NCBI RefSeq assembly: GCF_900102815.1
Contig: NZ_FNGF01000002.1
Location: forward strand, 496,001-560,000
Direction: 5' to 3'
Source: Glycomyces sambucus
Lineage (GTDB): Bacteria; Actinomycetota; Actinomycetes; Mycobacteriales; Micromonosporaceae
Length of the DNA stretch: 64,000 nucleotides
Made by a program: the position numbers and the translations under genes. The notes below the pieces were generated by a model. The model searched no databases. It was given only the letters and a program-made list of their open reading frames with translations, and was not told the DNA's origin. Positions within the stretch are counted from its first letter, which is position 1, and each line of letters begins with the position of its first letter. This document shows positions 38,627 through 45,601 of the stretch, one piece after another.

Positions 38627-39034
38627 TCAGTCGGTGACGGTGACCGCGAGTGCGACCGGGTCGGCGGGCGGGTTGCCGTCGGCGTCGCCCACGCAGTCGT
38701 CGAGGCCGGTGCGGAAGCAGTACTGGAACTGAAGCGTGGTCGCTCCGGCGGCGGTGGCCTCGAAGTCCCAGTAGAGGATCCCGCCGCAGCCGTCGCCTTC
38801 GCAGCTCGTGTCGCCCTCGGTCTCGGAGCCGGCGTCGGCGAGCACGCCGGTGTCGGCGCCGTCGACGAGGAACCAGTTGTCCCCCACCGAGTCGTTGACC
38901 TCGCCGAGGTCGACCCGCAGGGTCTCGCCGACCGTGACCGTCACGGTCTCGGCGTCGAGCGTGACGGTGGTGTCAGGGCCGGTGCATCCGGCGAGTGCCA
39001 GGAGCAGGACGAGGAGGGGTACCGCGATGCGCAT
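38627..39034 (-). CDS. Putative lipoprotein with chagasin (I42)-like domain
   Basis: Protein of 135 residues. Signal peptide and lipobox LALAGC at about residues 12-17 predict lipid anchoring outside the membrane. The mature domain has the outline of I42/chagasin cysteine-protease inhibitors: VTVTVGETLRVDLG, then NDSVGDNWFLVDG at the place of the NPTTGYxW loop, and TLQFQYCFR near the RPW strand. The inhibitor loops are poorly kept and four cysteines are present, so inhibitory activity is doubtful. ATG at 39034 is preferred because the signal peptide begins there. Confidence 0.62.
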   Translation of the reverse strand: MRIAVPLLVLLLALAGCTGPDTTVTLDAETVTVTVGETLRVDLGEVNDSVGDNWFLVDGADTGVLADAGSETEGDTSCEGDGCGGILYWDFEATAAGATTLQFQYCFRTGLDDCVGDADGNPPADPVALAVTVTD

Positions 39035-39088
39035 GCCTACGAAGGTATCCGGCCCGAACCAGCCGCAAACGTCCACAATCCGCGGAAC

Positions 39089-39125
39089 GGGGCCCGCGGA
39101 CACCGCGGTGGTGTCGGCGGGCCCC
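39089..39125 (-). terminator. Terminator hairpin after DAHP synthase
   Basis: GGGGCCCGC pairs with GCGGGCCCC (nine bases), then after one mismatch GACACC with GGTGTC, over a five-base loop, 15 bases after the DAHP synthase stop. Confidence 0.7.
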
Positions 39126-40267: not shown

Positions 40268-40351
40268 CGAGCGGGAGTCTCCTCTGGATTGCAGAGGCGG
40301 GTGGGAATCCACTCGGTGTTCAGCCCGGTGCCGGCCCGCCTCAACGACGAA

Positions 40352-40375
40352 CGGCAGAGACGGATGTCTCTGCCG
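40352..40375 (-). terminator. Candidate attenuator stem before DAHP synthase
   Basis: CGGCAGAGAC pairs with GTCTCTGCCG (ten bases) over a four-base loop, between the leader ORF and the DAHP synthase start. On the minus strand it is followed by TTCGTCGTTG, only moderately T-rich, so terminator strength is uncertain. Confidence 0.6.
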
Positions 40376-40378
40376 CAT

Positions 40379-40432
40379 GGCTCCGGGTGTCCGTCAGGTC
40401 AGCGCAGGTGACCGCGGGCTCCACCCGGAGCC
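40379..40432 (-). promoter_or_regulatory. Alternative-pairing segments of the aromatic leader
   Basis: GGCTCCGGGTG at 40379-40389 and CACCCGGAGCC at 40422-40432 are perfectly complementary (11 bases). The second segment can instead fold locally (GGCTCC/GGAGCC, 40417-40432), and the first can pair with 40324-40332 with one mismatch. Segment 40422-40432 begins five bases after the leader Phe codon, so a stalled ribosome would cover it. Confidence 0.55.
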
Positions 40433-40467
40433 TGCGTAAAGCGCTGATACCAGCGGACGGCGGACAT
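40399..40467 (-). CDS. Aromatic amino acid leader peptide (22 residues)
   Basis: Short ORF upstream of DAHP synthase. Residues 6-10 read WYQRF at the codons TGG (40450-40452), TAT (40447-40449), CAG, CGC and TTT (40438-40440), so all three end products of the pathway occur within five codons. TAT and TTT are rare in this high-G+C genome, which would make the ribosome sensitive to Tyr and Phe supply. The -10-like TACGGT (40474-40479) ends six bases before the ATG, pointing to a leaderless message. This is the pattern of an attenuation leader peptide; no homology search was possible, so the peptide itself is a prediction. Confidence 0.66.
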   Translation of the reverse strand: MSAVRWYQRFTQAPGGARGHLR

Positions 40468-40473
40468 GCCCGA

Positions 40474-40479
40474 ACCGTA
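40474..40479 (-). promoter_or_regulatory. -10 element for the leader/DAHP synthase transcript
   Basis: TACGGT on the minus strand, six bases before the leader-peptide ATG, with TGTGC before it as an extended -10. The -35 is not clear. Confidence 0.5.
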
Positions 40480-40656
40480 GCACACGGCCCCGGCGAGCGG
40501 CGAATGCGACCGGTACGTGGGGGCGTGTCCGAAGCCGGCCCGCGGGCCCGCGGTGTCGAAGGGCACGCCGGGAGGGCGCGTGAGCACCACCGGGACGGCA
40601 GTGACGCAGCGTCATGCGATGGAACAAAGGGACATCGCCTGAGACCCCCGGCAAAT
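40480..40656. other. Gene-free stretch between divergent DAHP leader and S33 peptidase gene
   Basis: Together with 40268-40398 and 40657-40743 this is the only non-coding stretch over 300 bases, broken by the leader ORF. 40480-40656 is high in G+C; no additional gene, repeat or hairpin of note is seen beyond the promoters described for each side. Confidence 0.5.
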
Positions 40657-40743: not shown

Positions 40744-42270
40744 TTGAGACCACTCACCCGCACCCTCGCGGCGGCCGCATCGGCCGCCGCGCTCACGCTC
40801 ACCGCGCTCGCCGTGACTCCGCTCGCCGCCGCGGCGCACCCCCGCGGCATCGACTGGGGCCCCTGCCCCGAGGTCGACCCGGCCGAGCCCGTCGAGTGCG
40901 CGACGATCGACGTCCCGCTCGACTACTCGCGGCCCTGGCGCGGCACCATCGAGATCGGCCTCGCCAAGCGCGAGGCGACGAACCCCGACGAGCGCATCGG
41001 CACCATCCTCATGGACCCGGGCGGCCCCGGCGGCTCGGGCGTCGGCTCGATCATCAACGGCAGCCCGCTCACCGGCGAGACCGCCGAGCGCTTCGACATC
41101 GTCGGCTTCGACCCGCGCGGCGTCAACACCTCCACCCAGGTGCTGTGCAGCGAGGAGGCCCTGGAGGCCGCCGCGCTCCCCGTCCCGACCGACCAGGCGG
41201 GCTTCGCGGCGCTCGAAGCCGCGAACGCGGCCCTGACCGAGGACTGCCGCGAGCACACCGGGCGCCTGTTCGACAACGTCTCCAACCTCGACACCGTCGA
41301 GGACATGGAGCGCATCCGCCGCGCGCTCGGCGAGGGCAAGCTCAACTACCTCGGGTACTCGTACGGCACCATCATGGGGCAGCAGTACGCCGAGGAGTAC
41401 CCGCGCAACTTCCGCACGATGGTCCTGGACGGCAACATGGACCACAGCCTGGAGTCCACATGGGACTTCCTGCGGTCCGAGACCGCGCCCGTGGAGGAGA
41501 ACTTCCTCGCGTTCGCGGCCTGGTGCGAGACGGCGCCCGAGTGCGCGCTGCACGGCTCCGATGTGGAGGCCGTGTACGCGGACCTCAAGGCGGCCGCGCG
41601 GGCGGGCGAACTGGTCGACCCGTACGACGGCACGCCGCTGGACTTCTACGCACTGTCGGCCGGGTACACGTTCCTGGCCAACCTCCCGCAGGCGTGGCCC
41701 GACTTCGCCCTCGCGCTCGACGCGATGCGCGACGGCGAGCAGTTGGCGGGAGTGCAGTCGTACCAGGAGGAGCCGGTCCTCTGGGAGCACCTGTACTACC
41801 CGGCCTGGTGCCAGGACTGGGGCTTCGACATCGCCGACTACGACGAGTTCGAAAGCCTGCTCGGCAGGTTGAGCGAGGACTTCCCCAACGTCGAGTGGTC
41901 GATGTACAACCAGCACGCGCTCACCTGCCTCGGTTCGGGGATCGACCACACCAACGAGCGCGACGAGCTCGACATCCCGCGCAGCGCAGCGGAGATGGTG
42001 TTCATCGGCAACGAGCACGACTACGCGACGGTCTACGAGTGGACCGAGACGGCCGCCGACCAGGCCGACGGCAGCCTCATCACCTACGAGGGCTACTGGC
42101 ACACGGTCTACGGCGGCTTCTCGTCCTGCGTGGACGACGCGGTCAACGACTACTTCGTGCACCGGACCAAGCCGGAGAAGGGCCTGAGCTGCCCGAACCT
42201 GGACTTCCCGGGGATCACCGGCCTCTCGGGCGGCGACCGCACCCCCGCGGCCGGACCGTTCGGCCCCTAG
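40744..42270 (+). CDS. Secreted alpha/beta hydrolase, tripeptidyl aminopeptidase-like (family S33)
   Basis: Secreted peptidase of 508 residues. A Sec signal (TLAAAASAAALTLTALAVTP) ends near AAA at residue 33. DPGGPGGSGVGSI (about residues 88-100) is the S33 oxyanion region, and the nucleophile elbow is GYSYG (about 203-207) in YLGYSYGTIMGQQYAEEYP. The acid lies in IGNEHDYATVY and the histidine in GYWHTVYGG near the C-terminus. Relatives such as Streptomyces SlpD/E and tripeptidyl aminopeptidase remove short peptides from protein N-termini outside the cell. The TTG start has AAGGAA eight bases upstream. Confidence 0.88.
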   Translation: MRPLTRTLAAAASAAALTLTALAVTPLAAAAHPRGIDWGPCPEVDPAEPVECATIDVPLDYSRPWRGTIEIGLAKREATNPDERIGTILMDPGGPGGSGVGSIINGSPLTGETAERFDIVGFDPRGVNTSTQVLCSEEALEAAALPVPTDQAGFAALEAANAALTEDCREHTGRLFDNVSNLDTVEDMERIRRALGEGKLNYLGYSYGTIMGQQYAEEYPRNFRTMVLDGNMDHSLESTWDFLRSETAPVEENFLAFAAWCETAPECALHGSDVEAVYADLKAAARAGELVDPYDGTPLDFYALSAGYTFLANLPQAWPDFALALDAMRDGEQLAGVQSYQEEPVLWEHLYYPAWCQDWGFDIADYDEFESLLGRLSEDFPNVEWSMYNQHALTCLGSGIDHTNERDELDIPRSAAEMVFIGNEHDYATVYEWTETAADQADGSLITYEGYWHTVYGGFSSCVDDAVNDYFVHRTKPEKGLSCPNLDFPGITGLSGGDRTPAAGPFGP

Positions 42271-43964: not shown

Positions 43965-44164
43965 CCGCGCCGGGCAAACTCGTCTATATCCCGAATTCGT
44001 GCCAAACAATCCACCTCACTGGCACCACTAGACCCGTTGTGTCGCAGTGATTCCACCGCGCCCCATTTCCGTACCCCGCAGTAGGTGAACAACGCCTATA
44101 TTCCGTGAGGTAGCCACCGCCGGACTGACGGTATTCGTTGGCCTTCAAACGGAACGGAGCGACA

Positions 44165-44575
44165 GTGGACAACAGCAACCCCTTCGCGAACATCGCCGGC
44201 CCCGAGGACGCCCGAGCGGCCCTCGCGAGCTGGAAGGAACGCGCCGAACAGCGCGCCGCCGACGCCATCGCGGCCTCAGAGGCCGTCCAGGAGCTCACCG
44301 CGGTCGGCATGGACGCCAACGGCGTCGTCGCCGTCAAGCTCAACTCCTCCGGCGCGGTCATCGGCGTCCAGTTCGCCCCCGACCTCCAGCGCATGCAGCT
44401 GCGCCACGCCGAGCGCCAGTTCATGGAGGCGTACCAGAACGCCGGCCAGGCTCTCCTCGAGAACGCCAGAGCCGCAGTCGAGGCCCGCCTCGACCCGGGA
44501 TCCCCCACCGCCAAGGCCCTGGTCGACAGCATCAAGATGCGCTTCCCCGAGCCCCCTGAGGAGGAGCTGCAGTGA
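44165..44575 (+). CDS. YbaB/EbfC-like protein of a type VII secretion cassette
   Basis: Protein of 136 residues. The central strand-turn-strand and helix (ELTAVGMDANGVVAVKLNSS, VIGVQFAPDLQRM) match the YbaB/EbfC nucleoid-associated fold; the N- and C-terminal helices are charged. In actinomycetes such proteins commonly precede WXG100/EspC-type genes. GTG at 44165 has GGAG five bases upstream. Its stop overlaps the next gene start, so it is coupled to the EspC-like protein. A chaperone or regulatory role for the secreted partners is inferred from context. Confidence 0.8.
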   Translation: MDNSNPFANIAGPEDARAALASWKERAEQRAADAIAASEAVQELTAVGMDANGVVAVKLNSSGAVIGVQFAPDLQRMQLRHAERQFMEAYQNAGQALLENARAAVEARLDPGSPTAKALVDSIKMRFPEPPEEELQ

Positions 44576-44886
44576 GCGACCAGTTCGAGGTCGTGACGGA
44601 CGACCTGCGTTCGCACGCCTCCAACATCGACTCGGTGCGCGAGCGTTTCGACGCGGTCCTCTCCGCGATCGACACCATCGCGCAGGACGACGAGGCGTAC
44701 GGCATCATCTGCCAGTTCCTGCCCCCGATCCTGGCCAACCGGCAGGAGGAGCAGAAGGAGCTCACCACGATGGCGCAGGAGAACCTCCAGCTCCTGGCCG
44801 ACGCCGTCCGCACCACCGCCGACGACTACGACAGCCTCGACGAGGCCGTCGCCTCCAGCTACCGCTCCATCGAAGAGGGGATCTGA
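44572..44886 (+). CDS. Type VII secretion target, EspC-like (DUF2580)
   Basis: Helical protein of 104 residues: FEVVTDDLRSHASNIDSVRE (residues 5-24) then a linker with AYGIICQFLPPIL and a second helix pair. This is the EspC/DUF2580 pattern, a relative of WXG100 proteins secreted by ESX systems. No cysteine pair or signal peptide is expected. GTG start at 44572 overlaps the YbaB-like stop. It probably forms a complex with the WXG-like partner encoded next for recognition by an ESX ATPase located elsewhere. Confidence 0.82.
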   Translation: MSDQFEVVTDDLRSHASNIDSVRERFDAVLSAIDTIAQDDEAYGIICQFLPPILANRQEEQKELTTMAQENLQLLADAVRTTADDYDSLDEAVASSYRSIEEGI

Positions 44887-44893
44887 ACGCCCC

Positions 44894-45601
44894 ATGAGCG
44901 ATCTCGTAGCGACGGAGAGCTCCGTCCCGCAACCCGGCGCCGCGTTCGCGGGCGCCGGCATCGTCGAGTCCTACGCGGGACTCGCCATGGCCATCGACTC
45001 CGGTTCCTGGATCGACGCCTCCGTCGCCGGGCTCGGCGTCGCGCTGGAGACCGTCGGCGCCGTCCTCGACCCGATCGGCACCCTCGCCTCGGCAGGCGTC
45101 GGTTGGCTCATCGAGCACGTCGAGCCCCTGAAGGAAGCCCTCGACATGCTCGCCGGGAATCCCACACTCGTCGAAGCGCACGCGATGACGTGGGACAACG
45201 TCGCCAACGAGTGCTTCGCGATGGCCGCGCAGCTCGAAACGACCCTCACCGATGTCGCCACCTGGACGGGCACCGCAGCCGACGCTTACCGGGGCAAAGG
45301 CGGTGCGAACGTCGACGTGCTCGACTGCATCGGCGGCACTGCGCTCTCGCTGGGAACCGCGACCCGCGGCGCAGGGCAGCTTGTCAGTATGGTCCGCGAG
45401 TTCGTGCGCGAGTTCGTGGCCGAGTGCATCGGGTCGCTGATCGCCTGGGCCGCCGAGGTGGCGTTCACCGTGGGCATCGGCGCCGCCTGGGTCATCCCCA
45501 AGGCGGTCATCAAGATCACCGAATGGGTCGGCAAGATCTTCGGCTGGATCACCGGCCTCATCGACTCTATCACCGCCCTCCGCGACCTCCTGTTCGGATG
45601 A
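44894..45601 (+). CDS. WXG100-like T7SS effector N-terminal module, stand-alone
   Basis: Protein of 235 residues. The first 165 residues match the WXG-type trafficking part of actinobacterial polymorphic toxins: LDPIGTLASAGVGWLIEHVE (residues 57-76), then TWDNVANECFAMAAQLETTL and ATWTGTAADAYRGKGG with the W-x-G turn near residue 124. The C-terminal third is hydrophobic with two or three membrane-spanning stretches (SLIAWAAEVAFTVGIGAAWV). No toxin domain is attached; the likely toxin is the separate next gene 10 bases downstream, so this looks like a split effector. Confidence 0.78.
   Translation: MSDLVATESSVPQPGAAFAGAGIVESYAGLAMAIDSGSWIDASVAGLGVALETVGAVLDPIGTLASAGVGWLIEHVEPLKEALDMLAGNPTLVEAHAMTWDNVANECFAMAAQLETTLTDVATWTGTAADAYRGKGGANVDVLDCIGGTALSLGTATRGAGQLVSMVREFVREFVAECIGSLIAWAAEVAFTVGIGAAWVIPKAVIKITEWVGKIFGWITGLIDSITALRDLLFG

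Follow-up and report, generated by a model that had tools for sequence, protein, structure and literature searches.

A conserved aromatic leader ORF with predicted mutually exclusive RNA pairings ahead of the type I DAHP synthase gene of Glycomyces sambucus and other actinobacteria

The type I DAHP synthase gene of Glycomyces sambucus is preceded by an aromatic leader ORF and by RNA segments whose sequences are predicted to form mutually exclusive pairings, an arrangement that the present analysis supports. We consider the element to be a ribosome-mediated attenuator of the kind described for aroR-aroF of C. glutamicum, with a probability of about 0.82; the name aroR denotes here a kind of mechanism, not a proven orthologue.

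In the window (the whole 64,000-nucleotide stretch of G. sambucus DNA that was analysed), the enzyme gene matched Pfam PF00793 (E 4e-86) and the TIGR00034 aroFGH equivalog model (482.5 bits, cut-off 173.2); a genome search found it to be the only type I DAHP synthase gene, with one type II enzyme encoded elsewhere. The first-pass annotation had drawn attention to a 22-codon ORF ahead of this gene with Trp, Tyr and Phe at codons 6, 7 and 10, and both its coordinates and codons and the identity of the gene were verified (Table 1). An aromatic leader ORF directly ahead of a type I DAHP synthase gene is as expected of the aroR-aroF type. The rarity ascribed to the Tyr and Phe codons also held, TAT making up 5 of 358 Tyr codons and TTT 5 of 498 Phe codons (about 1%) in a reference of 47 window ORFs of at least 200 codons and GC3 above 0.88, which is a set of ORFs and not of curated genes or the whole genome.

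Table 1. Features of the leader region and enzyme gene, in window coordinates
Feature	Position	Strand	Basis
Leader ORF, peptide MSAVRWYQRFTQAPGGARGHLR, 22 codons, ATG to TGA	40399..40467	-	Sequence; kept in L001-L021 and beyond
Leader start ATG	40467-40465	-	Sequence
Leader stop TGA	40401-40399	-	Sequence
Trp codon 6 (TGG)	40450..40452	-	Sequence
Tyr codon 7 (TAT)	40447..40449	-	Invariant in 21 aligned loci
Phe codon 10 (TTT), last aromatic codon ahead of segment A	40438..40440	-	Invariant in 21 aligned loci
Predicted -10 box TACGGT, 6 nt ahead of leader ATG	40474..40479	-	Sequence
Segment A (GGCTCCGGGTG), starts 5 nt past Phe codon	40422..40432	-	Complementarity, comparative scores
Segment B (GGAGCC), local partner of first half of A	40417..40422	-	Minimum-energy fold
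Segment C (CACCCGGAGCC), partner of A (11/11) or D	40379..40389	-	Complementarity, comparative scores
Hairpin T, terminator-like, 10 bp and 4-nt loop	40352..40375	-	Motif rule across loci; covariation
5' arm GGCGGG of D-holding hairpin	40335..40340	-	Consensus fold, 21 aligned loci
Segment D (GGCACCGGG), A-like, 8/9 pairing with C	40324..40332	-	C:D supported across clades
3' arm CCCGCC of D-holding hairpin, upstream of ribosome site	40296..40301	-	Consensus fold, 21 aligned loci
Likely ribosome-binding site AGAGGAGA of DAHP synthase gene	40278..40285	-	Sequence reading
DAHP synthase, type I (aroFGH), 375 aa	39140..40267	-	PF00793, TIGR00034

Immediately 3' of the DAHP synthase gene lies a gene for a Chagasin-family (I42) peptidase inhibitor (38627-39103, minus strand), and a divergent gene for a TAP-like alpha/beta hydrolase (40744-42270, plus strand, its start taken as the TTG at 40744) begins about 280 nt from the leader start. 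Three small genes follow at 44138-45601 (plus strand); the middle one belongs to the EspC-type type VII secretion family (PF10824), and the outer two gave no Pfam match.

The element was found in 173 of 259 regions upstream of DAHP synthase genes: 145 of the 179 taken from genomes searched within the window's class, made up of 30 loci, 29 loci and 120 hand-picked for spread among the matches listed, and 28 of 80 from named genomes, which were the best 80 of at least 590 matches and included the nearest named relative, Glycomyces salinus (L031, 83% identity). The counted set joins 146 loci to 27 later ones; the 173 comprise 168 distinct 150-nt sequences and 153 distinct peptides, with the proviso that the loci are related, some named and unnamed ones coming from the same species, and that the counts are not independent. 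Six regions with aromatic ORFs of other make (L083, L086, L092, L099, L104 and L107) were left out of the 146-locus set. Among the 86 uncounted regions, 52 belong to the named set, many of these being non-actinobacterial, and 34 come from searched genomes and include Nocardiopsis-like and f51 regions, second DAHP synthase copies and the N-masked L131. Comparison between loci shows conservation of the ORF, its codons, the predicted -10 box, the A:C and C:D complementarities and T. Named carriers include Glycomyces, Isoptericola, Dietzia, Mycobacterium, Williamsia, Rhodococcus, Amycolatopsis, Pseudonocardia, Arthrobacter, Microbacterium, Micromonospora, Paractinoplanes and Kribbella. Loss of the ORF in close relatives, which the first-pass annotation had named as grounds for abandoning its proposal, was not seen; among 22 same-genus genomes searched, all 19 with a type I DAHP synthase keep the aromatic leader ORF, with 188-206 nt between leader start and gene start. 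The type I enzyme itself was found in 169 of 200 genomes of the family, 63 of 296 of the class and 164 of 248 of the order, the three sets overlapping.

Some upstream regions departed from this pattern. In a Streptosporangiaceae MAG (L039), the leader, A, B and C lie about 70-110 nt ahead of the DAHP synthase match, and the usual stop reads TTA. Type I DAHP synthases of the Nocardiopsis kind (L041, L110, L134, L138, L140, L141, L145-L147, L149 and L154) are without an aromatic leader and share an ORF, about 150-250 nt upstream, that ends in a WEED-containing peptide. Other aromatic-rich leader ORFs, e.g. FYFWYY and FYFYFF, stand about 100-133 nt ahead of the gene in Xanthomonas (L107), a Burkholderiales MAG (L104), a proteobacterial MAG (L092) and Pseudogemmobacter (L086); in L104 and L107 a GC stem with a T run comes next, giving the look of independent classical attenuators.

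A 24-nt core pattern spanning the Phe codon, A and B, with at most one mismatch, gave a single match in each of 44 genomes out of the 200 of the family; every one of these lies 97-166 nt ahead of the DAHP synthase match and shares its strand. The reversed pattern, used as a control, matched once in the 200 genomes. No second copy was detected in the window's genome with up to three mismatches, the only exact match being the locus itself; the scan gave 18 matches in total (17 with two or three mismatches) versus 19 for the reversed control. A type II DAHP synthase is present in all 22 same-genus genomes, and the candidate that the same leader also precedes this enzyme was rejected, as it was absent from the 450 nt upstream in 22 of 22 regions (gene start being taken as match start). 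Two same-genus genomes hold extra type II copies (G009:C1:95729-97012, G009:C20:29884-31020 and G016:C1:159810-160931), one full length and two divergent. Rfam covariance models returned for the window a single sRNA match, of 15.2 bits against a gathering score of 40, and for 11 loci no match at E up to 0.1.

By its sequence the short leader carries end-product codons in the manner of a classical attenuator. Over the 173 loci the aromatic cluster uses TAT 187 times and TAC 10 times, TTT 179 times and TTC 33 times; Trp, Tyr and Phe are all present in 148 clusters and Phe and Tyr only in 23, and Phe is the last aromatic residue in 164 loci (example clusters being WYQRF, YWRF, YRWF, FYWF, YFWF and WYAYF). 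The 21 aligned Glycomyces-type loci (19 same-genus, 2 family) keep Tyr TAT and Phe TTT unchanged; Trp directly precedes Tyr in 12, directly follows it in 4, stands solely further upstream in 1 and is missing from 4. In 173 of 173 loci a leader start codon has a TANNNT box ending 6-8 nt ahead of it, versus 12 of 3460 random upstream positions; as the start codon was picked with regard to the box, this contrast is inflated. Given this phasing, the leader transcript is probably leaderless. Leaderless amino acid leaders have been described in Streptomyces lividans, where the table of eight leaders, in the available part of that paper, lists none ahead of DAHP synthase (PMC8079986).

The 11-base complementarity that had been proposed between A and C was verified at every position, and A:C is supported across clades; the local stem said to compete with it is also present, as A:B (40432-40427 with 40422-40417, minus strand), in the minimum-energy fold. 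The further proposal that C can pair with D stood only in part: eight of nine bases pair and comparison supports the helix, but it is weak in the window itself (z 1.6). Across clades, C:D had z above 1 in 76 of 82 loci, and its own score exceeded the other-clade mean in 62 of 82. In most loci A starts 0-7 nt past the last aromatic codon and C lies 3' of the stop; T stands close behind C, and D about 40 nt past C in T-bearing loci. Own-clade A:C and C:D scores lay above foreign ones in the Micromonosporaceae and Arthrobacter types, Arthrobacter-type C scoring 33.6 with its own A and 15.0-15.7 with others; in the Mycobacterium and f19 types (2 of 5 clades), sequence similarity meant that Glycomyces-type A and D gave C a score equal to or above that of its own partners.

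For the 21 Glycomyces-type loci, the RNAalifold consensus contained A:C, T and the hairpin holding D but lacked C:D. The alignment of 31 Micromonosporaceae-type loci yielded C:D unprompted, together with A paired to a segment ahead of the ribosome site (E); in this type A resembles D and C resembles E, which is the classical 1-2-3-4 attenuator layout. As their cores are almost constant in the Micromonosporaceae-type alignment, A:C and C:D show modest covariation there. In L221, A, C and T can be read in the sequence and no clear D is apparent.

Two explanations that would do away with codon-dependent control can be weighed at this point. Were the ORF and stems products of chance, the high G+C content, which makes stems common, would account for them, and single-locus A:C p values under mononucleotide shuffling are indeed often not small. 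By chance, however, a 300-nt strand would hold 0.009 ORFs of 12-45 aa with Trp, Tyr and Phe within five residues, folding of the 211-nt region lies 4.3 sd below that of dinucleotide shuffles, and the promoter phasing, rare codons and gene specificity all speak for selection of a functional unit; because the element is conserved across genomes, chance is untenable. Alternatively, the peptide itself might act, by nascent-chain arrest or in trans, in place of codon occupancy. Within clades, peptide ends are conserved (APGGA is an example), but the C-terminal peptide varies between clades with the pairing maintained, and in the 21 aligned loci the stem-forming stretch is nearly invariant at the nucleotide level; we regard action of the peptide as very improbable.

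To model occupancy, the ribosome footprint was blocked in folding, and means were taken over the 96 of 146 loci with usable starts. With the ribosome at the stop, A:C had a mean probability of 0.62 and C:D of 0.11; at the last Phe codon, A:C fell to 0.20 and C:D rose to 0.42; at the first aromatic codon, the values were 0.78 and 0.09. In these modelled folds, and in the comparison of loci, ribosome position thus appears to set mutually exclusive helices, A:C giving way to C:D when the Phe codon is occupied.

Toeprinting puts the reach of a stalled ribosome at 12 nt past the first base of its A-site codon. With this reach, and in the locus set of the looser hairpin count, at least 3 nt of A would be covered from 135 of 151 Phe codons, 28 of 137 Trp codons and 22 of 159 Tyr codons, in line, for part of A, with the earlier idea that a ribosome at the Phe codon would cover this segment. 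The same figures tell against the accompanying idea that one leader senses Trp, Tyr and Phe alike, such that a shortage of any one would switch the gene on: equal sensing is doubtful because Trp and Tyr stalls mostly fall short of A. That three residues occur in most clusters, which a Phe-only sensor would not need, argues for it, as does reported control by phenylalanine and tyrosine (PMC7356990, in the part available). But stalling at the first aromatic codon leaves A:C formed, Trp is missing from some aligned loci and from the clusters with Phe and Tyr only, and Tyr limitation is described as without effect in C. glutamicum, where AroR, with its Phe-Tyr-Phe motif ahead of aroF, responds to Phe limitation (available passages of PMC11802643). 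The Phe-favouring reach agrees with that response.

C. glutamicum aroR-aroF is, in the accessible passages of PMC4046766, PMC11802643, PMC7356990 and PMC6892785, the tested attenuator case, and papers differ on whether its control is transcriptional or translational. The element described here may act by termination at T, through translation of the enzyme, or by both.

The ten-base terminator-like stem with a weak T tract noted at first pass was confirmed as hairpin T (arms 40375-40366 with 40361-40352, minus strand), the tract after it in the window being poor (TTCGTCGTTG); a terminator-like hairpin between leader and gene is again as in the aroR-aroF type. A strict motif rule, which overlooks L015 and L167 as well as hairpins with long loops (L220 and L221, for example), found a separate T in 131 of 173 loci; a looser count of 137 of 146 also admitted the C:D hairpins of loci lacking T. 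Across the 21-locus alignment, 13 cells of the stem are changed on both sides versus 2.3 in shuffles, and the 10 nt past the hairpin hold a mean of 4.0 T (131 loci). This frequency and covariation, and the papers that call the C. glutamicum case transcriptional (seen in excerpt), favour transcription attenuation of the classical kind at T, in which kinetics, RNA polymerase pausing or Rho might hide the antiterminator from the present folding. However, the mean probability of T was 0.93, 0.93, 0.94 and 0.93 in the four ribosome states (131 loci; 0.91-0.92 in the looser 137-locus set), and the T tracts are modest. Competition of T with another segment was considered and rejected, neither folds nor reading having revealed an antiterminator. 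The claim that competing pairings govern the terminator was accordingly not upheld; because T folds alike wherever the ribosome sits, the textbook choice of terminator is not supported, and we place attenuation at T by a hidden antiterminator not far below even odds.

If output were instead purely translational, A:C, C:D and D:E would form a 1-2-3-4 chain whose last helix, lying near the ribosome-binding site, would impede initiation if no stalled ribosome released it, and T would be a pause or structural hairpin. The Rhodococcus/Amycolatopsis/Pseudonocardia type is suggestive here, in that T is missing and C:D is a tight hairpin; D has a partner E with z above 1 in 26 of 35 loci, often ending a few bases before an AAAGGA-like site, and the D:E flanks covary, with Watson-Crick pairs in 70 of 116 cells in 29 of the 35 loci (shuffled mean 48.8, maximum of 2000 shuffles 64). 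That no ribosome position displaces T, and that the available text of PMC7356990 calls C. glutamicum aroR control translational, point the same way. By contrast, T is conserved with covariation and followed by T residues, other papers call the C. glutamicum case transcriptional (again in part), and D:E in the 31 Micromonosporaceae-type loci showed no double changes and did not exceed shuffles.

Opening costs around the gene start were calculated for four windows in five groups, and the p values given here are without correction for multiple testing. The -35 to +15 window was cheaper to open after a Phe stall by 1.3-2.8 kcal/mol (p 0.006-0.03) in four of the five groups, namely the Glycomyces, Micromonosporaceae, Arthrobacter and Mycobacterium types and not the Rhodococcus type, which favours translational output. 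For -20 to +15, opening was cheaper by 1.4 kcal/mol in the Micromonosporaceae type and 3.4 kcal/mol in the Arthrobacter type; the 0.7 kcal/mol of the Glycomyces type was not significant (p 0.14), and the Mycobacterium type was reversed. The Shine-Dalgarno bases are on average uncovered, with mean exposure flat over ribosome states (0.43-0.45), and the cost of opening their window fell after a Phe stall in none of the five groups, shifting slightly the wrong way in the Micromonosporaceae (p 0.04) and Mycobacterium (p 0.07) types. Sequestration of the Shine-Dalgarno site, considered as a general output, was not observed on average. A purely translational output is possible, and we hold it tentatively, with the odds against it.

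Compared with known systems, the element is closest to aroR-aroF of C. glutamicum, which likewise has an aromatic leader peptide ahead of the DAHP synthase gene aroF. The regulatory residues reported there are Phe-Tyr-Phe, whereas the window has W-Y-Q-R-F, and the C:D and D:E helices seen in other lineages are not apparent on reading L221; two same-order relatives (L220 and L221) have WRFYF leaders that contain F-Y-F, and in their sequences A, C and a T-like stem can be read. Yanofsky-type trp, phe and ilv attenuators share end-product leader codons, alternative helices and a terminator-like hairpin (PMC11802643, in part), but here most leaders contain three amino acids, the leader is predicted to be leaderless and no competition between the terminator-like hairpin and the switch helices was seen. 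The LEU element of actinobacterial leuA also joins a leader peptide to structure reaching the ribosome site; in it, however, a run of Leu codons pairs with the Shine-Dalgarno box, with a pseudoknot proposed, and in the present element A starts past the codons. The same 2005 survey of actinobacteria reports, in the portion available, no conserved RNA structure ahead of Phe or Tyr operons (PMC1262725). The uORFC-13-1 of Acholeplasma aroF is a Phe leader ORF ahead of DAHP synthase with an adjoining terminator stem, but it is confined to Acholeplasma (24 representatives), has its own ribosome site and is Phe-only as described (PMC8632094, in excerpt). In the open-licence literature searched we recognised no report of leaders of the present kind ahead of DAHP synthase in other actinobacteria.

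Under the favoured reading of the element as an aroR-aroF-type attenuator, transcription would probably start at the leader ATG, and ribosomes would read the short W-Y-Q-R-F peptide. With aromatic tRNAs charged, the ribosome would reach the stop and A would pair with C; D would then be left in its own hairpin near the ribosome site, and expression would be low. When Phe is short (in other lineages, possibly also the adjoining residue), the ribosome would wait at the rare TTT and cover the 5' part of A, so that C would be freed to pair with D and expression would be high. Both the translation of the leader and this direction of response are what we infer.

A more elaborate possibility is that one leader polls three aromatic amino acids and weights them by codon position, Phe, nearest the switch, counting most and Trp and Tyr acting more weakly or via upstream stems, and also has two serial outputs, the terminator-like hairpin and the helix at the ribosome site, with lineages keeping or losing each separately; taken as a whole, this scheme appears unlikely. 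The possible reading of several amino acids and the mode of output are the interesting parts beyond the known aroR case. Three end products in one leader raise the question of how a single attenuator weighs several signals, and clean predictions follow from the retained rare codons and from the putative leaderless start. The element is relevant, too, to strains that produce aromatic compounds. Many actinobacteria with a type I DAHP synthase apparently keep this first enzyme of the shikimate pathway under ribosome control.
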